The notes below the pieces were generated by a model, which searched no databases, was not told the origin of the DNA, and saw only the letters and a program-made list of their open reading frames with translations. The position numbers were made by a program, and so were the translations under genes. From positions 3,968,001-4,032,000 of the forward strand of contig NZ_CP074102.1 of the NCBI RefSeq assembly GCF_018310535.1: a DNA stretch of 64,000 nt, given 5' to 3'. Below are positions 40,745 to 54,599 of this stretch, one piece after another (within the stretch, counting starts at the first letter, position 1; the number at the start of each line of letters is the position of its first letter). This DNA is from Streptomyces mirabilis. GTDB taxonomy: Bacteria > Actinomycetota > Actinomycetes > Streptomycetales > Streptomycetaceae.

Positions 40745-41277
40745 GCCGAGGATCCGTGTTCCTGCAACCAGCGCCGAGCGCCGACCTCGCTGGGATACTC
40801 ACGCACGGTGAGCCAGGCGACCAACCAGCCGACGATGTACGCGGCGAACGCCGGCATGACGGGCGCCGCGAGGATCACGAGGCCCCGGCCGGCGGCTACC
40901 AGCCCGGGGGCGCGCCGGTTGTGGGCGCGCTTGGCCTGACGGGTCTGCTCGGGGGTGGGCGGGTGCAGGAGACCTTCACGGTGGCCCCGGCGCTGCCTCA
41001 CCCACCCCCAGACCAGAGCCACGCAGGCGGCGACCACCTGTACCCAGTCGCACACGGTGCGCACGGTGGGCGGCATCTCACTGCGGAACCCTTGGTAGAG
41101 GCTGATCGAGAAGAAGCAGACCATGGCCATCACGATCAGCAGGAAGACCGTCGTACGGGCACGGCACAGCCAGTAGAGCGCGCCGCGCTTGTACCACGTG
41201 GTCCCGAGCTTGGGCAGGGCCGGAATGTGGGCGGGGGTCCCGAGGGCGGGAACCTCAGAAGATGCTCTTGACGCCAT
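40741..41277 (-). CDS. Membrane protein, first of a tandem paralog pair (candidate immunity protein)
   Basis: 178 aa. Opening PALPKLGTTWYKRGALYWL and closing TVREYPSEVGARRW match the next gene; three TM segments in the same places (VFLLIVMAMVCFFSISLYQG, DWVQVVAACVALVWGWV, VILAAPVMPAFAAYIVGWLV). Its start lies 23 bp inside the WXG gene, so translation is coupled. No named family recognised. The position after a WXG protein with a hydrophobic tail fits an immunity role. Confidence 0.75.
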   Translation of the reverse strand: MASRASSEVPALGTPAHIPALPKLGTTWYKRGALYWLCRARTTVFLLIVMAMVCFFSISLYQGFRSEMPPTVRTVCDWVQVVAACVALVWGWVRQRRGHREGLLHPPTPEQTRQAKRAHNRRAPGLVAAGRGLVILAAPVMPAFAAYIVGWLVAWLTVREYPSEVGARRWLQEHGSSA

Positions 41278-42529
41278 GCCAGATGTCCTTCGCCATTCGT
41301 ACGCCGTCGTCCCCGGTTTCCGTGAAGACGTGGCCCGTGCCGGTCAGCACACCACCGACTACGCCGTGGTCGTGGATGTCCTCGCTCCAGTGCTCGTGGA
41401 AGGAGTGGTCGAGGAGACTGGTCGCACCCACCGCTGCCACGACCCCGACGCCGGCCAGCGCGACCGCGCCTTCGACGGGCAGGGCGGCCACAACGCCCGC
41501 GCCGACGGCGACACCGCCGAGTGCGGCACCGCCGTCGACGACGACGGAGTGCTGCCAGGACCAGCCCTTGTCGTGGTCGTCCTTCGCCTCCACCAAACCG
41601 CACGCCGCAGCCGCGGCGACGTCCAGCACCGGGACCTCCTTGAGGAACTCCGGCAGCGCTTCGAGGCTTCGGCCGACGCGCAACGCCTCGGCGGCGTCTG
41701 CCAGTTTGATGTTGAGGGCCCGGTCGTAGGGGAGCTTGGTACTGCCGTGGTCGGCGCGGGCGATGTCCTCTTCCAGCGAGTCGACCTTCGTCATCGCGTC
41801 GCGGTAGGCGCTCTTGGCGGGGAGGTCCTTGGGCAGCGAGCGACCTGCCTTCTGAAAGGCCTTGCGCTCCGCGCGGAGTTCCTTCTTGGCTGCCCGCTCC
41901 TCGTCCTTGGCGCCGTCGATCAGCTTGCGGGCCTCCCTGCCACCGGCTCGGGCGTCCTCGGCGTCGTACGCGTACAGACCCCGCAGCATGTCGGCAAGGG
42001 TGATCTTGTCGCCCGGTGACACCGACGCGGTGACCTGTGCGTACAGTCCCCGCAACTTGTCCGCCGCGACCAGCCTCGCGTGCTGCGCCGTATGCAGAAT
42101 CTCCGTGCGCACCTTGTCGTACTCGCCGAACGCCGAGATCGTCTTCTGTTCGTCGGCGCTCGGCGGGTCGGACGTGACGAACTGGAGCGGGGCGCCCTGG
42201 GCGCCCATGGGTACGCCCTTCTTCGCGGCGATGTGCTCGGCGTTCTGCAGGGCGGTCTCGCAGGCGGACAGCGCACCGACGAGGGTGTCGAGGATGTCGC
42301 CCGCGTCGTGGACGAGGCCCGCGAAGGCTCCCGCCGTGAGGGCGTCCTCGCTCCAGGTGGCGCGGAAGGTCTCGGCCGCGTCGCCCTTCCAGCTCGCGTC
42401 GCCGACCAGCTCCTCGACGGCGCTGCTGAGCGGACGGACGACGTCCTCGAGCTTCTTCTTGGCGTTCTTGTACGTCTCGGCCATCGTGCGCAGTCCGCCG
42501 ATGTCGCCGCCGACCCAGCTGTCGCCCAT
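41255..42529 (-). CDS. WXG100-superfamily protein with hydrophobic C-terminal domain (candidate T7SS effector)
   Basis: 424 aa. The N-terminal ~100 residues form a WXG helical hairpin with DASWKGDAAETFRATW. A long helical middle follows, including a charged coiled coil (DGAKDEERAAKKELRAERKA). Residues ~310-390 are a Gly/Ala/Val-rich hydrophobic domain (GGAALGGVAVGAGVVAALP, VALAGVGVVAAVGATSLL), then a His/Asp-rich end (HEHWSEDIHDHGVV). This architecture fits a type VII-secreted effector with a membrane-inserting tail. It starts on the stop of the DUF6317 gene (TGATG). Confidence 0.75.
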   Translation of the reverse strand: MGDSWVGGDIGGLRTMAETYKNAKKKLEDVVRPLSSAVEELVGDASWKGDAAETFRATWSEDALTAGAFAGLVHDAGDILDTLVGALSACETALQNAEHIAAKKGVPMGAQGAPLQFVTSDPPSADEQKTISAFGEYDKVRTEILHTAQHARLVAADKLRGLYAQVTASVSPGDKITLADMLRGLYAYDAEDARAGGREARKLIDGAKDEERAAKKELRAERKAFQKAGRSLPKDLPAKSAYRDAMTKVDSLEEDIARADHGSTKLPYDRALNIKLADAAEALRVGRSLEALPEFLKEVPVLDVAAAAACGLVEAKDDHDKGWSWQHSVVVDGGAALGGVAVGAGVVAALPVEGAVALAGVGVVAAVGATSLLDHSFHEHWSEDIHDHGVVGGVLTGTGHVFTETGDDGVRMAKDIWHGVKSIF

Positions 42530-46213: not shown

Positions 46214-47713
46214 TCAGCCGTCGTCCCCCCGCTCGTCCGGGGCCGCGAGGACGAGTTGGGTCAGCTGGGTGGGGTCGCCCGTGTCCAGGGTGACCCGGTA
46301 GAGGCCGGGCGCGGGCACGGTGACGCGGGCCGCGAGGTGGTCGTCGTCGCCGTGCAGCCGGGCGGGTCCGGCGAAGGCCCCGTCCACCTCCTCGACCACG
46401 CAGTCCAGCCCCGCGGGACTGTCGGCGCCGCGCACCCGGACCGTCCAGGGCGTGCCCGGGGCGACGAGGTCCGGGACCTCGATGCCGACCCGTGCCCCGG
46501 CCTGCGGAGGGCCGAGGTGCTCGTCCTCCTCCAGGAACGAGGTCACCGCCTCCAACGCGGCCTCCCCCTGGGCCAGCGCACCGTGCTGCAGCGCAAGGGG
46601 CACGATGGCGCGGTTCAAGGGGGAGGTCGCGGACTCCTTGTGTACGGTGCCGTCGCCGCCCACGTCGAAGCGACGCGGTGCGCCGGTCTCGTCGCGCATC
46701 AACTCGCCGTCGCTGTGCTCGCGGTAGCAGTGCTCGGAGGCGGTCACCACGCCCTGACGGAGGGTCAGGGACTGGAGTGTGGGCTGGCTGATGCCCACCA
46801 GCGCCCGGTGCCCGGGCAGCGCCCGCCCGCGCAGGGTGTCGTGCAGGGTCTGGGAGTCGACGGCCAGATCCTTGTCGCCGCCCAGGTCGGCGATGTCCGT
46901 GGGGCTGAGCCGGCGGATGTTCAGGCCCTCGTCGAGACAGGGAAACGTCGGGAGCAGGTCGTGCAGGCCCGGCATGGTGTACGCGAGTCTCCTGAGCCTG
47001 CCGTGCGGCAGCGGAACCGGCGCGCCCTGCCCGGTGTTGAGGATCGCGGCGGCGGCCACCGCCCCCTGGAAGGGCGTACCGAGGGTGAGCACCCCACGGG
47101 TGTCCGCCGCGAGGTCGGCGTCGGGGCCGTCGGTGAGAGCGGCGAGGGTGAGCAGTCCGCCCATGGAGTGGGCGACGAAGACGAGCCGCCCCTCCCGTTC
47201 GTCGACCCGGTGCTTGCGGGCGAGCGCGTGTGCGGGGTGCCGCCGCCACCGCTCCAGATGGGCGCGCGCCGCCTCGGCGAGGAACCGGGCGTTCGTGGCG
47301 ACCGACAGCCGCCAGTCATAGGCGAAGGGCAGCACGGCCTGAGGGTCGGCCACGCTCCGGGTGACCGTCGCGACCAGGTCGCCGTAGGGCTCGATGCCGC
47401 GCAGGAACGGGCTCCAGGCGGGGGTGCTCAGCAGGCGCCGGGCCCGGATGCGGCCGAGGCGGCCCTCGCGTTCGTCGGGCGTGAGGCGCAGGGCGCGTAA
47501 GCCCCGGGGCGCCGTCCAGGCCTTCAGCAGCCATCCGGCGTTCGCGAGGCCCCAGACGACGTCGCCCGACTCGGCGTCGTACAACTCGCTCCCCATGATG
47601 CCGGGAACGACGACGACGGCGTCCTGCGTCGTGTTCGGAGAGAGGCCGGGGAGGCTGTAGGGCCGCTCGTCCAGGCGGCGGCCTGCGGTATTGGGCTGCG
47701 ACGACTCGGTCAT
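46214..47713 (-). CDS. LCAT-like lipase/acyltransferase (alpha/beta hydrolase)
   Basis: 499 aa. DAVVVVPGIMGSELYDAES is the lid/oxyanion start typical of lecithin:cholesterol acyltransferase-like enzymes; nucleophile Ser183 is in VFVAHSMGGLLTLAAL; TLGTPFQGAVAAA follows; FDVGGDGTVHKESA holds the acidic residue and LQHGAL the His. A C-terminal beta-sandwich (TPWTVRVRGADSPAG) may bind substrate. No signal peptide, so it acts in the cytosol or on the inner membrane face. Its start lies about 20 bp from that of the divergent caspase-NTPase gene; an ATG at 47734 is also in frame. Confidence 0.87.
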   Translation of the reverse strand: MTESSQPNTAGRRLDERPYSLPGLSPNTTQDAVVVVPGIMGSELYDAESGDVVWGLANAGWLLKAWTAPRGLRALRLTPDEREGRLGRIRARRLLSTPAWSPFLRGIEPYGDLVATVTRSVADPQAVLPFAYDWRLSVATNARFLAEAARAHLERWRRHPAHALARKHRVDEREGRLVFVAHSMGGLLTLAALTDGPDADLAADTRGVLTLGTPFQGAVAAAAILNTGQGAPVPLPHGRLRRLAYTMPGLHDLLPTFPCLDEGLNIRRLSPTDIADLGGDKDLAVDSQTLHDTLRGRALPGHRALVGISQPTLQSLTLRQGVVTASEHCYREHSDGELMRDETGAPRRFDVGGDGTVHKESATSPLNRAIVPLALQHGALAQGEAALEAVTSFLEEDEHLGPPQAGARVGIEVPDLVAPGTPWTVRVRGADSPAGLDCVVEEVDGAFAGPARLHGDDDHLAARVTVPAPGLYRVTLDTGDPTQLTQLVLAAPDERGDDG

Positions 47714-47732
47714 GGCGGGAAGAATAGAGACC

Positions 47733-49904
47733 ATGCGAGGGCGGGCGGGCGGGCTTGTCAGGATCGGGGAGCCGGGGGACGCCGACGATACGGGGCGGGC
47801 CACGGCGGGCCGTGCGTCGGTGAATGCCGTGACCGCCGTGGACGAGGACTCCGCGCGGCGCACCCTGCTGACCCTCGCCGTCCGTGACTACGACGACGGG
47901 GACACCGAGTTCACCGCCGGCATCGACGAACAGCTGTCCGTCGTGGCCGACTGGTGGTGCGCCCCGGGAGCACCGGAGCCGTTCACGCACGTCCCCGCGC
48001 CGGAGCTGCGCGAGCGCTACGACGTGGAGCGCTTCCTGCACGAGAGCAAGGTGCGCGAGATGCGCGGCCGCGCCCTGGTCGTCTTCATCACGGGCCACGG
48101 CCAACTGGGCGCCTCCCGCACCCACTTCCTCCAGCTGCCGAGGACCGAACCCCGGCGCCAGCTGGCCACGGCCATCCGCACCAGCGAGATCGTCGCCGCC
48201 GCCCTCGACTCCCGCGCCGAACACGTCCTGGTCGTCATCAACACCTGCTACGCGGCCGGGATCGCCGAGGAGCTGGAGAAACTGCACCAGGAGATCCTGC
48301 CGAGCCGGCGCACCGGCGGCAGCCTGGACGTCGTCGCCACCTGCGCCCACGACCAGCTGGTCCAGGTACGGCAGTTCCCCTCGGTGATGCGCCGTGTGCT
48401 GGAGCGGCTGCGCACCACCGCCCAGATCACCACGCCCTGGCTGAGCGTCGCCCATCTGATGACGGAGTTCGAGAGCGAACTCGGCACCGACACCGAGCGG
48501 CGCAAGCACCGGCTCAAGCGGGTCCTGGACGGTGGCGGCCAGACCACCCTGACGCCCTGTCTGCCGAACCCCGGCTACCGGCCCGTACGGGAACTGGTGG
48601 GGCCCGCGCGCCGCCAGGTCGCCACCCCGGCCGACGAGGTCGACCACTGGCTCGACCGCGCCAGCGGCCGCCCCCAGGAAACCGACCCCGGCTGGTACTT
48701 CAGCGGTCGCGAGGGACTGGGCCGCGCCATCACCGCGTTCCTCGGCCGTCCCCGCGGCGTCCTGCTGCTGACCGGGACCGCCGGCAGCGGCAAGTCGGCC
48801 GTGCTGGCGCGAGCCGTGACGTTCAGCGACCCGCTGTTCCGCGACGACCCGCGCTACGGCCGCGCGCTGCGCTCGGCCGCACCCGAGACCGTCCCGCCCG
48901 AGAACTCCGTCACCGCCGCCGTACTGGCCCGCCACCGCACCGCCTCCGACGTGCTCGGCGACCTGCTGCGCGCCCTGGAACTGCGACCGCGCCCGGCCGG
49001 GCCGAGCGACGACCCGGTGGAACTGCGCCGCGCCCAGCTGATGGCCCACCTGGACGAGCCGGGCGACCCGGTCACGCTCGTCCTCGACGGCCTGGACGAG
49101 TCCGTCGAACCCTTCCGCGTGGTCAGGGACGTACTCGCCCCGCTCACCGCCCACTGCGGCGCCGCCCCCGCCCTGCCCGGCCAGCGCCGTCCGGAGCGGC
49201 AGCGGTCCCTGCGGCTGCTGATCGGCGTACGCAGCAGCCGTCCCCGTACGGACCGCGCCGCCCCTGCCGGGCCCGCGGGGCGGGAGACGGGGCTGCTCGG
49301 CGCGCTCCGGGAGGTCTTCCCCACGGCGTCCGTGCTGCGCACCGACGAGACGGACAGCGAGAGCGACATCGCCGACTACGTCCAGGCGCTGGTCGGCGAC
49401 GAGACGTCCGGCGGCGACAGCACCCGGCAGGCGGCCGAGACCGTCGCCAAGCGGGTCTGGCCCTCGTTCCTGGACGCCCGGCTGGCCGGCGAGCAGCTGC
49501 ACCACGCGTCCGACCCCGGCGCGCTGGCGGACAACCCCGACTGGCTCGAACTGCTGCAGGCGGGCACCGTCGGCCTGCTCCGGCGCGATCTGGCGCTCGT
49601 CGAGGACGAGGGACTGCCCCCGGAGGTCGCCCTCGCGCTGCTGCGGGCCGCCGCGTTCGCGCTGGGCGCGGGCATCCCCTGGTCGGACGTGTGGCCTGCC
49701 GTCGCCGGGGCGCTGCTCGGCCGGCCCCTCGAGGACCCGGACCGGATGATCGAGAACCTGCTGAAGAGCAGGCTCGCCGGATATCTGGCCCACGACGACG
49801 AGGACGACCGGCTGGTGTACCGGCCGGCCCACGAAGCCCTGTCCGAGCTCCTGCGGGATCCCCGCCAGGACCTGCTGGCCGGCGTCGGGGGCGGCGCCGT
49901 ATGA
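47733..49904 (+). CDS. Caspase-like peptidase fused to a STAND-type P-loop NTPase
   Basis: 723 aa from this ATG; GTG codons at 47757 and 47820 are alternatives because the domain only begins at LLTLAVRDYDDG. Residues ~35-215 are a caspase-like (C14) fold: VVFITGHGQLG with His122 and VLVVINTCYAAGI with Cys172 give the His-Cys dyad. Then a P-loop NTPase with Walker A GTAGSGKS at 348-355 and Walker B VTLVLDGLDE with Asp452. The end LVYRPAHEALSELLRD is the usual STAND helical region before sensor repeats, but the repeats are in the next gene (ATGA overlap). Confidence 0.85.
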   Translation: MRGRAGGLVRIGEPGDADDTGRATAGRASVNAVTAVDEDSARRTLLTLAVRDYDDGDTEFTAGIDEQLSVVADWWCAPGAPEPFTHVPAPELRERYDVERFLHESKVREMRGRALVVFITGHGQLGASRTHFLQLPRTEPRRQLATAIRTSEIVAAALDSRAEHVLVVINTCYAAGIAEELEKLHQEILPSRRTGGSLDVVATCAHDQLVQVRQFPSVMRRVLERLRTTAQITTPWLSVAHLMTEFESELGTDTERRKHRLKRVLDGGGQTTLTPCLPNPGYRPVRELVGPARRQVATPADEVDHWLDRASGRPQETDPGWYFSGREGLGRAITAFLGRPRGVLLLTGTAGSGKSAVLARAVTFSDPLFRDDPRYGRALRSAAPETVPPENSVTAAVLARHRTASDVLGDLLRALELRPRPAGPSDDPVELRRAQLMAHLDEPGDPVTLVLDGLDESVEPFRVVRDVLAPLTAHCGAAPALPGQRRPERQRSLRLLIGVRSSRPRTDRAAPAGPAGRETGLLGALREVFPTASVLRTDETDSESDIADYVQALVGDETSGGDSTRQAAETVAKRVWPSFLDARLAGEQLHHASDPGALADNPDWLELLQAGTVGLLRRDLALVEDEGLPPEVALALLRAAAFALGAGIPWSDVWPAVAGALLGRPLEDPDRMIENLLKSRLAGYLAHDDEDDRLVYRPAHEALSELLRDPRQDLLAGVGGGAV

Positions 49905-52303
49905 GCGACGCGGACAGCCCGTACCGCGCGCCCCGTCCGGGCCGCTCCGACACGGGCGACTCGAAGACGTGGGCCGACGACTCGAAGGCGTGGGCCGACA
50001 CCAAGGACGCGCACCGGCTCATCGCCGAGGCGCTGTCCCGGCTCGTCGCCGCGGACCCGACGATCCCGCCCCACCCGTATCTCAGCCGTCACCTGGCGCA
50101 GCACGCGGCCCGGGGCGAGGTCCTCGACGACGCCCATGTGCCGCCGGCCGTACTGCCCTGGGAGTCCAGCGCGAACGTGCGCACACTGCTGCGGCAGAGC
50201 GGCCCCGTGAGCGCGCGGCGGCAGGAGTGGCTGGAGGCGTGGGCCCGCATCGAGCCGTTCATCGGCGGCGCCGGTCCGGAGTCCCGGCTGACGAGCCTGC
50301 ACCTGGCCCAGCACGCGGCGACCCGCCCCCGCACCCCGCTCGACACGTCCGCCGCGCGGGTGTCCGGTTCGCGCATCACCCCGCTGTGGAGCGACTGGAC
50401 GGCGCAGGACAACGTACTGGCCGTCTCCGAGACCCGCCTCGAATCGCTGACCCGCACCACGACCGCCGACGGCCGCTCGCTGCTGGTCAGCGGCGACAGC
50501 CACGGCACGATCCGCATGTGGGAGCCGCACGGCGTACCGGCGATGGCGCCGCTGCACACGTACGGCGGCGCGGTCCAGCATCTGCTGCCGCTCCCGGGCG
50601 ACCTGCTGCTCTCCGCGGGCACCGACGGTTCGGTGCGCGTCTGGCACCTCACCCGGGGCCAGCTGCTCGCCGAACCCGTCCACCGCCCCGGCACCTGGGT
50701 CAGCGCCCTCACGCTCTTCGCGGCGAAGGACAGCCCGGAGGTCGTCCTCGTCGCCCACAGCGACGGCGCTCTCGGCGCGCTGGATCCCGTCACCTTCCGG
50801 CCCGTCGACACCCCGCTGCCCGCCCTCGATCCCGCTCCGGCCCTGCTGAGCGGGGTCGGTCTGGGCGGGGCGGAGGGGATGGTGCTGGCCGTGGCCCAGG
50901 GCCGGCGGGTGCGTGTCTGGGATCCCCGGCGGGCCGATGGGTACACGCACGAGCACGAGCATCAGGGGGCGGTGCGGGCCCTGGTGGACCTCGCGGCGCC
51001 GGGACGGTACGCGCTCTGCGACGACTCGGGGTACATCGGTTTCCGGGACGCCTCGACGGGCCGGGAGACGGCCGTCGCGCCGGCTCCGCCCGCGGGGCCC
51101 GCCATCGCCCTGACCGCCCTGACCGTGGCGGGCCGGGCGGCGGTGGCCTCCGGGGGCAGCGACCACACCCTGCGGGTCTGGGACGCGCGGACGGGCGCGG
51201 CGATCGGCGGCGCCCTGGAGGGACACACCGCTCCTCCGGTGGCTCTGACCACGCTGCCGGGCTCCCCGCAGGAGCTCCTCGTCTCGGCCGGCGCGGACCA
51301 CACCCTGCGGCGCTGGAAGCCGGGCGGGCCGGGCGTGGGTGCCGGGCGCGCGGTCCGACGGCCCGTCACGGCGGCGGCGCTGTCGGGTGCGGGGTCCACC
51401 GCCGGTGCGCCGCTGATCGCCGTGGCCGACGAGTCCGGTACGGCGCTGTGGGACACCGGGACCGGCCGCTCGGCCGCACTCCCGGCGGGACACGCCACGG
51501 TGACCGCCTTCGCCTCGGCGCTCGTCCGGGGCGAGCCCCTGCTGGTGACCGCGCACAGCGACGCCGGGGTCCAGCTCTGGTCCCTTGACCGGGGGGCCCA
51601 CGCCGCTCCCGCACGGCTGGCCGGGCTCCTCGGCCACAGCCTGCCGGTACGGTCGATGGCCGCCTTCCCGCACGACGGACGGACCCTGCTGGTCACCGGG
51701 GGCGCCGACGGCACCGTACGGCTCTGGGACCTCGACCGGGCATGTGTGCTGGCCTGCCGGGAGGACCATCTGCTCAGCGTCCGGGACGTCGCCGTGCTCG
51801 ACACGGCACAGGGTCCGCGGATCGTCTCCGCGGGCACCGACGGGACCGTACGGCTCTGGGATCCGGCCACGCTGCGGCCCGCGGGGGCGCCGCTCCACTG
51901 CGAGCAGCGGGTCGTCAACGCCGTCGTCGCCGTGCCCGTCGACGACCCGGACCGTGCCGTCCTCGTCGCGTCCGGCGGGGAGGACGGCACGGTCCGGCTC
52001 TGGGATCCCGGCACCGGGCGGCCGGTCGGGCGGCGGCTGGACATCGGCGACGGGCCGGTGGCCGCGCTGGCGTCCTTCCGGACCGCGACCGGCCGCCCCT
52101 GCCTCGCGGCGACGGGCCCCGGCGGAACCATCCACCTGTGGGACATCGGCACCGGCTCGCACCTGCTGCGGATCGTGACGGGCAGCCCGCTCGGCATCCT
52201 CGACGCCCGGCAGCCGGGCGGCCCGCGCCCCGAGCACCCCGTCCTCCTCGCGGCGGGAGTCGCAGGCGTATGTGTGTTCGACATTCGAGTGGAGGGGCGC
52301 TGA
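49901..52303 (+). CDS. WD40-repeat sensor protein with STAND helical N-terminus
   Basis: 800 aa. Residues ~30-130 (HRLIAEALSRLV, HPYLSRHLAQHAARGEVLDD, PWESSANVRTLLRQ) match the helical stretch that in single-chain STAND proteins links NTPase to repeats. From ~150 on there are about a dozen WD40 blades, with repeat ends such as IRMWEPH, VRVWHLT, VRVWDPR, LRVWDAR, VRLWDLD, VRLWDPA, VRLWDPG and IHLWDIG. No signal peptide or TM. Its start overlaps the caspase-NTPase stop, so it is the repeat half of a split STAND protein, probably the trigger-sensing part. Confidence 0.9.
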   Translation: MSDADSPYRAPRPGRSDTGDSKTWADDSKAWADTKDAHRLIAEALSRLVAADPTIPPHPYLSRHLAQHAARGEVLDDAHVPPAVLPWESSANVRTLLRQSGPVSARRQEWLEAWARIEPFIGGAGPESRLTSLHLAQHAATRPRTPLDTSAARVSGSRITPLWSDWTAQDNVLAVSETRLESLTRTTTADGRSLLVSGDSHGTIRMWEPHGVPAMAPLHTYGGAVQHLLPLPGDLLLSAGTDGSVRVWHLTRGQLLAEPVHRPGTWVSALTLFAAKDSPEVVLVAHSDGALGALDPVTFRPVDTPLPALDPAPALLSGVGLGGAEGMVLAVAQGRRVRVWDPRRADGYTHEHEHQGAVRALVDLAAPGRYALCDDSGYIGFRDASTGRETAVAPAPPAGPAIALTALTVAGRAAVASGGSDHTLRVWDARTGAAIGGALEGHTAPPVALTTLPGSPQELLVSAGADHTLRRWKPGGPGVGAGRAVRRPVTAAALSGAGSTAGAPLIAVADESGTALWDTGTGRSAALPAGHATVTAFASALVRGEPLLVTAHSDAGVQLWSLDRGAHAAPARLAGLLGHSLPVRSMAAFPHDGRTLLVTGGADGTVRLWDLDRACVLACREDHLLSVRDVAVLDTAQGPRIVSAGTDGTVRLWDPATLRPAGAPLHCEQRVVNAVVAVPVDDPDRAVLVASGGEDGTVRLWDPGTGRPVGRRLDIGDGPVAALASFRTATGRPCLAATGPGGTIHLWDIGTGSHLLRIVTGSPLGILDARQPGGPRPEHPVLLAAGVAGVCVFDIRVEGR

Positions 52304-52426
52304 TCCGGCGCCCGCCGGGCCGCCGAATGTGCGCGTGCGCCTCCCGTATGCTCCAGCGCCCCCCTCTCGCGCCCCCGCCACGGCGTGGAAGCGGGCATCC
52401 TGGGGCGCGCGCCACGGGAGAATGAT

Positions 52427-52457
52427 CGCCCGCATGTTCCGGCGGAACATGCGGGCG
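52427..52457. promoter_or_regulatory. Perfect 31-bp palindrome between WD40 and RES genes
   Basis: CGCCCGCATGTTCCG, one central G, then CGGAACATGCGGGCG. It lies 123 bp after the WD40 stop and ~200 bp before the RES gene. It could be a hairpin terminator or an operator. The rest of 52304-52652 shows three 16-bp imperfect repeats (GGAACGTACGGCTACG-like, from 52461) and no gene. Confidence 0.7.
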
Positions 52458-52652
52458 AGGGGAACGTACGGCTACGGGAACGTACGGGCACGGAAACCTG
52501 CGGGACACAGGGATCACGCGCCTCGTGCGGACCGCGCGGCACCTTCCGCACGGCACGCGGGCCACCCGAGCCCCGGGCCCCTCGGCCCGCCGGGCGGCGC
52601 CCCGGCAGTGCGGCAGCGGCCGCAGACCATCGGCTCAGCAGCGAGGACCAGG

Positions 52653-53372
52653 ATGAACAACAGCCCTTCGGCGGTGACCACAGCCCACTTACCGTCCCTC
52701 GTCCCCGCTCCGGAACGCGGAGTGTGGCGGCTGGGCAAGAGGGATCACCCCAAGGAGTACAACCGGCTCGACCCCGAGACCAGCCAAGGCTCCAGCCAGA
52801 GCTCCAGCGCAGGCCGCTTCAGCCTCGCCACCTACGGAACGCTGTACTGCGCCAGCGATCCGGCCGGCTGTTACGCCGAGGCGCTCGCGCCCTTCCGCGT
52901 CCATCCCAAGCTGCGCGGGCTCATCGGCGACGAGTGGGACGAGCGGCCCAGCCACATGAGGCTCGGCCACCTGGCCTCGGGCTGGCGCGAGGACCACATC
53001 CTGGTCCGGCTCGAACCCGCCAAGGACGCCCAGTTCCTCGACGTCGACGCCGAGTCCACCCGGGCCGTCCTCGCCCGCGAACTCCGGGGCGAGCTGGCCG
53101 CGTGGGACATCGAACCCCCGCTCACCGACCCGCACATCCACGGACGCGACCGCAGGCTCGCCCGGCAGATCGCGGCCTGGACGGTCGCCCAGCGCAACGA
53201 CGCCGGCCACCGGCTGGCCCAGGGCATCGCCTACCGCTCCGGATACGGCGGGCGCACCTGCTGGGCCATCTTCCACGACGTCGATCTCGTCGAGGCCGAG
53301 CGGCGCCCCATCCAGCCGGAGTCCCCCGAACTGCGCGCGGTCGCGGCGGAGTACGGCCTGCGTGTCTTCTAA
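52653..53372 (+). CDS. RES-domain toxin (NAD+ phosphorylase/glycohydrolase family)
   Basis: 239 aa. The RES triad is visible: Arg26 in GVWRLGKRDHP, Glu76 in SDPAGCYAEALAPF and Ser196 in GIAYRSGYGGRTCWAIF, with GRFSLATYGTLYCASD between. RES toxins such as MbcT destroy NAD+ and stop growth. A ParS/Xre-type antitoxin gene follows 330 bp downstream on the same strand, although the antitoxin usually comes first. AGGACCAGG precedes the ATG. Confidence 0.85.
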   Translation: MNNSPSAVTTAHLPSLVPAPERGVWRLGKRDHPKEYNRLDPETSQGSSQSSSAGRFSLATYGTLYCASDPAGCYAEALAPFRVHPKLRGLIGDEWDERPSHMRLGHLASGWREDHILVRLEPAKDAQFLDVDAESTRAVLARELRGELAAWDIEPPLTDPHIHGRDRRLARQIAAWTVAQRNDAGHRLAQGIAYRSGYGGRTCWAIFHDVDLVEAERRPIQPESPELRAVAAEYGLRVF

Positions 53373-53448: not shown

Positions 53449-53651
53449 CCCCGGGGCGTTCGGCCGCACCCGCGTCGCCCGATCGAGCGGTGCTCCGTCC
53501 CGCACCCGTCGACGGCTCCGGAGAAAACCCCTGGTCAAACCCCTCACGCCATTTTCGAGGTGGGATTTCACAGGGGATTGAAGGGGGGAAAGCGGTGGAG
53601 TGAGAGACCCTCTGACGGGTAGACTTCCCTCAACACAACTGAGGAGACGCC

Positions 53652-53708
53652 ATGTTGACACCCCGTCTGTCACCCCTCGCGCCATCCCGCGTCTTACCCG
53701 TTTCATGA
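53652..53708 (+). CDS. TTA-containing leader ORF (18 aa) before the antitoxin gene
   Basis: GAGGAG lies 5 bp before an ATG that opens MLTPRLSPLAPSRVLPVS. Codon 15 is TTA (53694-53696), the rare leucine codon read only by the bldA tRNA in Streptomyces. Its TGA overlaps an in-frame ATG of the antitoxin gene (ATGA at 53705). It looks like a regulatory leader peptide rather than a functional protein. Confidence 0.5.
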   Translation: MLTPRLSPLAPSRVLPVS

Positions 53709-53728
53709 CCGCCACGAAGCGAGGAATC

Positions 53729-54148
53729 ATGCAGCCACTGCGAGAGTCCGCGGCCAAGACGGTCACCGCGAGCGTCACCGACACGGTCACCGAGACCACC
53801 GCGCACGCCAACACGGTCCAGAAGTCGATCGCCGACATAGCGCGCTTCCTCCAGGACAACTTCGGGCAGAAACTCACCGCGTTCATCGCCGGTATCGAGG
53901 ACCCGAAGCAGGTCGGCAAGTGGTCCAGCGCCCAGAACAGCCCGAGAATCGACTCCGAGCTGCGCCTGCGGGCGGCCTACCAGGTCTTCCAGATCATCGA
54001 GCTCCAGGAGAACTGCCACACGGCACGCGCCTGGATGATCGGCATGAATCCGCAGCTGGAGGACGACTCACCGCTGCAGGCCATCGCCGAGGACCGGCAC
54101 AAGGACGTCATGGCGGCGGCCCGCTCGTACGTCAAGGGCGATCTCTGA
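53729..54148 (+). CDS. Antitoxin-like protein (Xre/MbcA/ParS toxin-binding type)
   Basis: 139 aa from this ATG, which has GAGG 4 bp upstream; the ATG at 53705, coupled to the leader ORF, is equally possible. An N-terminal helical part (TVTASVTDTVTETTAHANTV) precedes the HTH-like region IARFLQDNFGQKLTAFIAGI and KWSSAQNSPRIDSELRLRAA. The C-terminus ARAWMIGMNPQLEDDSPLQA-IAEDR is the MbcA/ParS domain that covers the RES active site. It should neutralise the RES toxin and repress the locus. Confidence 0.75.
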   Translation: MQPLRESAAKTVTASVTDTVTETTAHANTVQKSIADIARFLQDNFGQKLTAFIAGIEDPKQVGKWSSAQNSPRIDSELRLRAAYQVFQIIELQENCHTARAWMIGMNPQLEDDSPLQAIAEDRHKDVMAAARSYVKGDL

Positions 54149-54203: not shown

Positions 54204-54599
54204 ATGCAGTCCTACACCATCGGTCAGGCGGCACGGCTGCTCGGCGTGAGCCCGGACACCGCACGACGGTGGGCGGACGCCGGGCGGGTGGCGACGCACC
54301 GGGACGAGGGCGGGCGGCGGCTGATCGACGGGCGGGATCTGGCCGCGTTCTCCGTCGAGCTCGCCAAGGGCGGCAGCGGTGAGGAGGACGCCTCCTACAC
54401 CTCTGTGCGCAACGCGTTCCCGGGCATCGTCACCGCCGTGAAGCTCGGCGACGTGGCCGCTCAGGTGGAGATCCAGGCCGGACCGCACCGGCTGGTCTCC
54501 CTGCTGACCCGGGAGGCCGTCGAGGAACTCGGCCTCGAGGTCGGCATGGAGGCCACCGCCCGCGTGAAGTCGACGAACGTGCACATCGACCGGGCCTAG
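54204..54599 (+). CDS. HTH-TOBE regulator (molbindin-type), probable molybdate sensor
   Basis: 131 aa. N-terminal MerR/excisionase-like HTH (YTIGQAARLLGVSPDTARRW then DEGGRRLIDGRDLAAF). C-terminal TOBE/Mop domain: SVRNAFPGIVTAVKLGDVAA, LTREAVEELGLEVGMEATA and VKSTNVHI, which binds molybdate or tungstate. It is the counterpart of ModE in actinomycetes. No ribosome-binding site, so leaderless from the TATCTT box. Probably controls modABC 3 kb to the right. Confidence 0.85.
   Translation: MQSYTIGQAARLLGVSPDTARRWADAGRVATHRDEGGRRLIDGRDLAAFSVELAKGGSGEEDASYTSVRNAFPGIVTAVKLGDVAAQVEIQAGPHRLVSLLTREAVEELGLEVGMEATARVKSTNVHIDRA

Follow-up and report, generated by a model that had tools for sequence, protein, structure and literature searches.

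A mobile five-gene cassette of Streptomyces that joins a caspase-STAND NTPase to an LCAT-type lipase and a RES/antitoxin-like gene pair

Introduction

Does a lipase gene lying head-to-head with a caspase-NTPase gene form a single system with it and, if so, where does that system end and what might it do? The question is raised by a locus of Streptomyces mirabilis (assembly GCF_018310535.1; host genome 9.6 Mb) within a stretch of 64,000 nucleotides from contig NZ_CP074102.1, positions 3,968,001 to 4,032,000, here called the window, whose own numbering is used below. A sequence-only reading had proposed that a caspase-STAND/WD40 module and an LCAT-like lipase, between 46214 and 52303, were a candidate two-effector device for programmed death or defence. 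We find the locus to be a mobile five-gene cassette, present in Streptomyces and close relatives, of which a RES gene is a core member. We lean towards seeing in it an NLR-like conflict cassette, acting in abortive infection or programmed death, whose lipase and RES arms would be controlled by the caspase.

The head-to-head arrangement is real, the two ATG codons lying 19 bp apart (about 20 bp in the sequence-only reading). The borders given there were wrong: the RES gene, mentioned only as adjoining, is a genuine one above the Pfam cut-off and moreover a core cassette member, and it and the antitoxin-like gene at 53729-54148 belong to the conserved unit. The features are as follows.

46214..47713, minus strand: alpha/beta-hydrolase resembling LCAT and group XV phospholipase A2, 499 aa, ATG start (Pfam, PDB profile, invariant residues, hydropathy)
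47714..47732: 19-bp gap between the lipase and caspase genes, with the sequence TATTCT 7 nt upstream of the lipase ATG (minus strand); putative bidirectional promoter
47733..49904, plus strand: caspase (His122/Cys172), STAND-type NTPase and C-terminal helical region, 723 aa, ATG start
49901..52303, plus strand: WD40 protein, 800 aa, with an ATGA overlap with the NTPase gene (WD40 1e-34)
52653..53372, plus strand: RES-domain protein (NAD+-degrading toxin family), 239 aa, ATG at 52653 (Pfam RES 2.6e-9)
53729..54148, plus strand: MbcA/Xre-type antitoxin-like protein, 139 aa, ATG at 53729 (profile match to MbcA)
44571 to about 46112, minus strand: Ser/Thr kinase of PknB type (Pfam), outside the cassette

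Pairing of hydrolase and caspase across genomes

The sample covered a single genus and, in addition, named genomes from one pattern-based scan. With the lipase as query, matches at E<=1e-3 were obtained in 91 of 392 same-genus genomes. The weak matches (7.9e-5 to 1e-3; the sole matches in 18 of the 91 genomes) were treated as noise, the genes having been inspected in three regions. At E<=1e-10, and with fragments of one place merged, the genomes other than the window's yielded 87 lipase loci, all of which were taken; they are related by descent, some of them from one genome, and the profiles used in this count were made from members of this set. A caspase of the same type adjoins 66 of the 87, in the order lipase-then-caspase in 31, divergently in 20 and as caspase-then-lipase in 15. 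Gene order thus varies while adjacency stays, which has the look of a functional pair.

The remaining 21 loci lack an adjacent caspase. Four have a neighbour of the CHAT type, also of the caspase superfamily (L195, L198, L201 and L202; by Pfam for L198 and by BLAST for the others); at L198:5517-9076 the lipase lies beside a CHAT-protease gene, as if the caspase had been swapped for another protease of its superfamily. In five more the lipase forms the end of a long protein (L061, L063, L065, L067 and L069, the lipase of L069 being broken). The only one of these long-protein loci examined, L067:2478-8892, has the lipase C-terminal in a 1426-aa protein, the rest of which weakly resembles AAA_16 and NACHT-type models; its neighbours are an EAD1 protein with trypsin and an EAD1 protein with a weak AAA match, and it may be another conflict system using the same lipase family. 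Full-length lipases at L184 and L188 stand in what, judged by eye, is apparently a housekeeping context. The others are at contig ends (L182, L190), incomplete (L066, L068, L076, L078, L197, L207, L208) or ambiguous (L204). A different extension is seen at L055:9168-16737, where lipase and caspase-STAND genes are followed by a 1207-aa helicase-like gene (AAA_11/AAA_12); judged by gene size, the order is similar in L057-L060 and L062.

The reverse search, with the caspase domain in 150 same-genus genomes, found 25 places in 22 genomes, 24 of which were examined. Eight are head-to-head with the lipase (the window, L033, L037, L038, L039, L041, L043 and L045) and a ninth, L081, also has this lipase beside it. 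Fifteen of the other 16 were fetched (L102-L116), a second copy in genome G091 being left out. The LCAT-type lipase is absent at all 15, L113 having a 4e-4 match only, while another alpha/beta-hydrolase, of the HGI...AHSLGS type, adjoins the caspase in 13 of them (none in L110 or L112). The profile of this second hydrolase, seeded from four of the 15 loci and iterated on the fetched set, also captured six LCAT-type lipases. The same exchange of hydrolases is found in loci of Rhodococcus, Gordonia, Aldersonia and Mycolicibacterium.

According to the sequence-only reading, pairing would be called into question were the caspase-NTPase gene usually found without the lipase. Fifteen of the 24 caspase loci do lack this lipase, but 13 of those 15 have the other alpha/beta-hydrolase adjacent. 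The excerpts of Kaur 2020 (PMC7159879) used here describe a caspase domain in VMAP systems, mostly from multicellular bacteria, as always having a neighbouring alpha/beta-hydrolase gene. This rule holds also for most of the caspase-STAND proteins examined.

Inheritance and mobility of the cassette

Within the genus, the RES and antitoxin-like genes follow the WD40 gene in 13 of the 14 head-to-head loci. In the remaining one, L033, the contig breaks off, and both genes lie on another contig of that genome (G077). Head-to-head caspase, RES and antitoxin-like genes occur in the same eight of the 150 genomes; at E<=1e-5 neither the RES nor the antitoxin-like family was found in any other of the 150, nor was there a free-standing copy. 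The closest named relatives located are Streptomyces records. Among loci from named genomes 28 of 46 carry the pair, including 27 of the 34 that have the lipase; three of those 34 are cut by contig ends (L140, L156, L159) and four (L163, L167, L168, L176) have the lipase without the RES and antitoxin-like genes. Lipase profile scores run from 1.5e-186 to 8.5e-165 in RES-bearing loci and from 3.6e-144 to 3.5e-104 in L156, L163, L167, L168 and L176. The RES/antitoxin pair follows one lipase clade, and the caspase does not split the groups cleanly.

When 36 cassettes are compared pair by pair, the distances for lipase, caspase, NTPase, RES and antitoxin are well correlated (Mantel r 0.77-0.94, each with p 0.001 by a permutation that ignores relatedness). 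The surroundings are another matter: a flanking gene, sought up to four genes a side with some contigs shorter, is common to only 17 of 630 cassette pairs. Correlated gene distances and rarely shared flanks together indicate that the cassette genes travel together. The caspase-NTPase matches 32 of 72,556 plasmid records, all at below 60% identity, and none of 50,697 phage records. Two plasmid loci have all parts by profile (lipase, caspase, NTPase, WD40, RES and antitoxin-like gene), one of them being the same record as L039. In plasmid record NZ_CP108348.1, from S. decoyicus, the cassette genes are labelled hypothetical, ATP-binding, benzoate transporter, RES and XRE. This joint inheritance suggests one built-in self-destruct or virus-defence system.

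Caspase-STAND NTPase and WD40 receptor

The window's caspase domain taken alone matches no Pfam family at 1e-3, and it is recognised through its relatives and through invariant His and Cys residues. Peptidase_C14 is matched by nine of 22 caspase relatives (best 3.9e-15), the best PDB matches of the caspase are themselves caspases, though weak (E 0.015), and the caspase-NTPase reaches the EACC1-associated caspase model NF047832 at 7.6e-11 and 41.9 bits, below its cut-off of 140. The His122/Cys172 dyad picked out in the sequence-only reading is invariant in 40 sequences, as are G353, K354, S355, D452 and D455 of the NTPase (Walker A/B). The P-loop NTPase that it placed after the caspase is thereby borne out; in Pfam, AAA_22 is over its cut-off (4.7e-7), with AAA_16 and nSTAND1 below theirs.

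The coupling to a WD40 gene also stands, the two genes overlapping by ATGA, and the domain order supports the proposed effector-switch-sensor arrangement. With Walker A/B residues and C-terminal sensor repeats both present, the protein pair has the predicted layout of an NLR/APAF-1-like STAND NTPase with WD40. Of 13 close relatives, five have NTPase and WD40 fused (1457-1635 aa) and eight, like the window, have them split; in eight of the nine split loci, the window included, ATGA or GTGA closes the NTPase gene. Compared with the nearest relative, L032, the WD40 protein is 87% identical and the lipase, caspase, NTPase and RES 93-98%, as expected of a faster-changing sensor. No clear membrane helix was found in the window's caspase-NTPase, where the best 19-residue hydropathy mean is 1.66. 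The label of benzoate transporter on a cassette WD40 gene (L209:9082-11412, in NZ_CP108348.1) is an apparent misannotation.

The lipase and its short gap to the caspase gene

The lipase matches Pfam LCAT over the cut-off (4.5e-8). Against the PDB, a profile of 54 relatives picks up the uncharacterised 4r1d (1e-10), a putative lipase (1.2e-10) and group XV phospholipase A2 (PLA2G15, 1.2e-8), and its C-terminal part resembles filamin Ig-like domains (1.1e-4). The Ser-Asp-His residues S183, D354 and H377 are invariant across the 54. An N-terminal hydrophobic stretch is absent in all 15 close relatives (top 19-residue hydropathy mean 1.36), so the lipase is probably cytoplasmic. Fifteen of 15 close relatives and several further ones carry an insertion that directly precedes Asp354 and loosely follows the pattern G-x(3-4)-R-[DR]; in the distant clades L070-L091 it is reduced or missing. 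At most, this insertion is a candidate for a gate or a cleavage site of the lipase.

The gap between the lipase and caspase start codons is itself conserved. Under looser criteria it measures 18-20 bp in 15 of 15 head-to-head loci and in 29 of 34 named lipase loci; of the other five, L156, L167 and L168 have 43-44 bp, while L163 and L176 show no clear pair. The conserved divergent pairing looked for in the sequence-only reading is thus present: RES-bearing loci that reach the lipase keep the head-to-head pair and the 18-20 bp gap. With the start codons annotated by NCBI, the gap is 18 bp in one of the two plasmids and 20 bp in the other. In a stricter test on the 36 RES-bearing cassettes and on L033, L140 and L159, a row had to show both a gap of 18-20 bp and, 6-8 nt ahead of the lipase ATG, the element TANNNT. 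Each of the 39 rows has exactly one match; they represent 38 distinct loci, since L033 and L140 come from a single contig. The core positions without variation are the three that the TANNNT filter required, and the ANNNT half facing it from the caspase strand follows from TANNNT by symmetry; neither is extra evidence. Core positions outside the filter are A in 36, G in 34, G in 35 and A in 37 of 39. A Shine-Dalgarno match precedes the lipase in none of the 39 and the caspase in eight. The conserved gap suggests one pseudo-symmetric bidirectional promoter and a leaderless lipase mRNA; pseudo-symmetric bidirectional promoters are described in E. coli (PMC12825309).

RES and antitoxin-like pair

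RES (gene 52653-53372) is recognised in Pfam over the cut-off, and several residues are invariant among 14 aligned RES proteins; searched against the PDB, the RES profile matched no RES structure. A profile of 13 antitoxin-like proteins matches MbcA (6fkg_C) at 1.5e-4, the next match being at 0.4. Six of the 13 weakly match PF09722 (best 0.011), and the NCBI name of this gene in two plasmids is XRE family regulator. On the strength of the MbcA match, the weak PF09722 matches and the XRE naming, the two genes are most likely a toxin-antitoxin pair.

The intergenic regions hold several local features. An ~80-nt stretch between the RES and antitoxin-like genes (window 53578-53659) has 68-78% identity with up to ten other cassettes; an Rfam search gave a single match, at E 0.42 and under the gathering score, and none at 53578-53659. 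Between the WD40 and RES genes lies a 15-bp perfect inverted repeat with a 3-nt loop (window 52426-52458), whose 11-bp core is found in L133. We rejected this palindrome as a shared feature: L158 has a different repeat, and none of at least 11 bp is present in the other 33 of 36 cassettes. An 18-aa leader-like open reading frame with a Shine-Dalgarno match (window 53651-53707) overlaps an upstream ATG of the antitoxin frame. It, too, was discarded as a shared feature, being present only in the window, L133 and L134.

A possible caspase-controlled switch

Our observations cover the gene and domain content, the catalytic residues, the co-occurrence and joint inheritance of the genes, their differing genomic sites and the conserved gap. 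Built on them is a scheme in which the use of the promoter, the order of activation, the substrates of the caspase, the enzyme activities and the biological role are proposals of ours. The lipase and caspase would be made together from the one short bidirectional promoter. The WD40 propeller would sense a ligand, upon which the STAND NTPase would oligomerise and bring the N-terminal caspase domains together. The active caspase would then act on partner proteins encoded by the same cassette. Most likely it would turn the cytoplasmic LCAT/PLA2G15-type lipase loose on the membrane of its own cell, and RES, once the MbcA/Xre-type antitoxin was lost, would be free to consume NAD+.

Several facts weigh against this picture. 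Other lipase-caspase clades are without RES, and so are L167 and L168, whose caspases, 42% identical to the window's, are no more distant from it than some from RES-bearing loci; the lipases of these two loci, however, lie further away. The RES and antitoxin-like genes are several hundred bases apart and form no tight operon with the WD40 gene or each other. The arginine of the GVWR motif is His in two of 14 RES proteins. According to PMC11535050, no RES system is known to be linked to bacterial immunity, and NatT gave no phage phenotype there. Lastly, PADLOC has no model for the lipase, caspase, RES or 53600-54148; the WD40 protein matches one large HEAT-ARM model there.

Some of the same facts favour the alternative that survives best, namely that the RES and antitoxin-like genes are an addiction or stabilisation module keeping the cassette in the genome rather than an effector arm of the STAND-caspase switch. 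Both genes have long upstream gaps of their own, the RES-to-antitoxin gap being long throughout the 36 cassettes; other lipase-caspase clades lack the pair; two cassettes are on plasmids; and RES-Xre pairs are known, from the excerpts of PMC11535050, as stand-alone toxin-antitoxin modules. Nevertheless, the exact co-occurrence with the head-to-head caspase in the 150 genomes, with no free copy of either family at E<=1e-5, speaks against it, and we regard an addiction module as a serious, if secondary, possibility.

More tentatively, the toxin-antitoxin pair may have been turned into an inducible arm of the switch: on infection the caspase would destroy or strip the MbcA-like antitoxin, after which RES would burn NAD+ while the lipase attacks the membrane. 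If true, the cassette would contain a two-effector caspase switch and would provide the first immune role of RES toxins known to us.

A role in Streptomyces development, through programmed death of the mycelium, or in interactions between kin, in place of phage defence, seems to us rather unlikely. Streptomyces hyphae undergo regulated death, which counts for such a role, but the sparse spread (8 of 150 genomes), the differing sites and the plasmid copies better fit an accessory conflict gene. The link of such systems to multicellular bacteria made in the excerpts of Kaur 2020 (PMC7159879) also favours development. It is similarly doubtful that the lipase is a regulator or signal-maker for the caspase-STAND protein (by a lipid signal or caspase restraint) and not a killer, since, even if one short start gap would also suit an inhibitor-protease pair and one examined lipase relative sits within a STAND-like protein, the Ser-Asp-His residues are invariant in the 54 relatives and the exchange of the LCAT lipase for another alpha/beta-hydrolase makes enzyme activity likelier than a specific binding surface.

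Neighbouring genes

The kinase noted in the sequence-only reading is a real gene beside the lipase, and matches many kinase models in PADLOC, but is not conserved among cassettes. We therefore rejected it as a member: among the 35 other cassettes, the lipase-side neighbour gene of the window is shared only with L133 and L134, both near relatives. Likewise, a MerR/TOBE molybdate-type regulator beside the antitoxin-like gene (window 54204-54599) has the same position only in L133 and L134. Further away, at 41255-42529, the window encodes a 424-aa protein with a WXG100-like N-terminus (PF06013).

Comparison with known systems

The sequence-only reading knew of no earlier description of the lipase pairing. 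A caspase and hydrolase pairing is in fact published for VMAP systems (excerpts of PMC7159879), and the STAND/WD40 setting appears new. More exactly, the principle of pairing is known, while its STAND/WD40 setting, the head-to-head gap and the RES pair appear to be new within the literature searched. No paper on a cassette of RES with caspase-STAND, or of LCAT-type lipase with caspase-STAND, was among the matches listed in a search that left subscription journals and supplements largely outside.

The VMAP (MoxR-vWA) conflict systems resemble the cassette in that a neighbouring alpha/beta-hydrolase gene accompanies the caspase, and the excerpts of Kaur 2020 (PMC7159879) list both caspase and alpha/beta-hydrolase as effectors in GAP1-N1 systems. 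In the cassette, by contrast, a STAND NTPase with WD40 forms a fusion with the caspase, an LCAT-type hydrolase starts head-to-head across the short gap, and RES with its antitoxin is added; no cassette protein has a Pfam match to VMAP, MoxR or vWA. The VMAP loci themselves (30 short, 20 long) gave no caspase match, and the other hydrolase type matched in two of the 20 long ones. At L241:6014-9962, from a Streptomyces relative without a caspase match, an alpha/beta-hydrolase of the other type lies one gene from a VMAP-type set. The window's genome also has, outside the window, three VMAP-C loci of published ternary conflict systems (C1 4603857, 4912724 and 812038).

The cassette caspase is nearest to the model associated with EACC1-caspase two-gene systems (excerpts of Kaur 2020, PMC7159879), yet falls far below the model's cut-off, and no EACC1 gene was recognised among the scanned proteins. 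CARD-NLR/gasdermin systems (excerpts of PMC13236601) likewise combine an NLR-like ATPase, a protease and, in some variants, a membrane-attacking enzyme (phospholipase); in the cassette a caspase replaces the trypsin-like proteases, the lipase is of LCAT type, and the scanned proteins gave no CARD or gasdermin match. The RES and antitoxin-like genes recall the RES-Xre modules MbcTA and NatRT (excerpts of PMC11535050), with RES over its Pfam cut-off and a neighbour matching MbcA, but differ in lying inside a caspase-STAND cassette, with the toxin gene first and the antitoxin-like gene several hundred bases further on.

The comparison with HamMAB, Avs1 and Canu bears most directly on the proposed switch. 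The excerpts of PMC12799240 describe proteases linked to Hachiman and Avs, and a caspase in Canu, that activate a partner pro-nuclease, and suggest further classes of proteolytically activated enzymes. Those systems share with the cassette a sensor-linked protease co-inherited with a separate effector enzyme; here, though, the effector is a lipase rather than an MBL-type nuclease, and its proteolytic activation is only proposed. The cassette is thus a candidate lipase counterpart to these newly described protease-activated nucleases, and an instance of a caspase and hydrolase pairing that recurs around STAND-WD40 receptors, with the type of hydrolase exchanged between clades.

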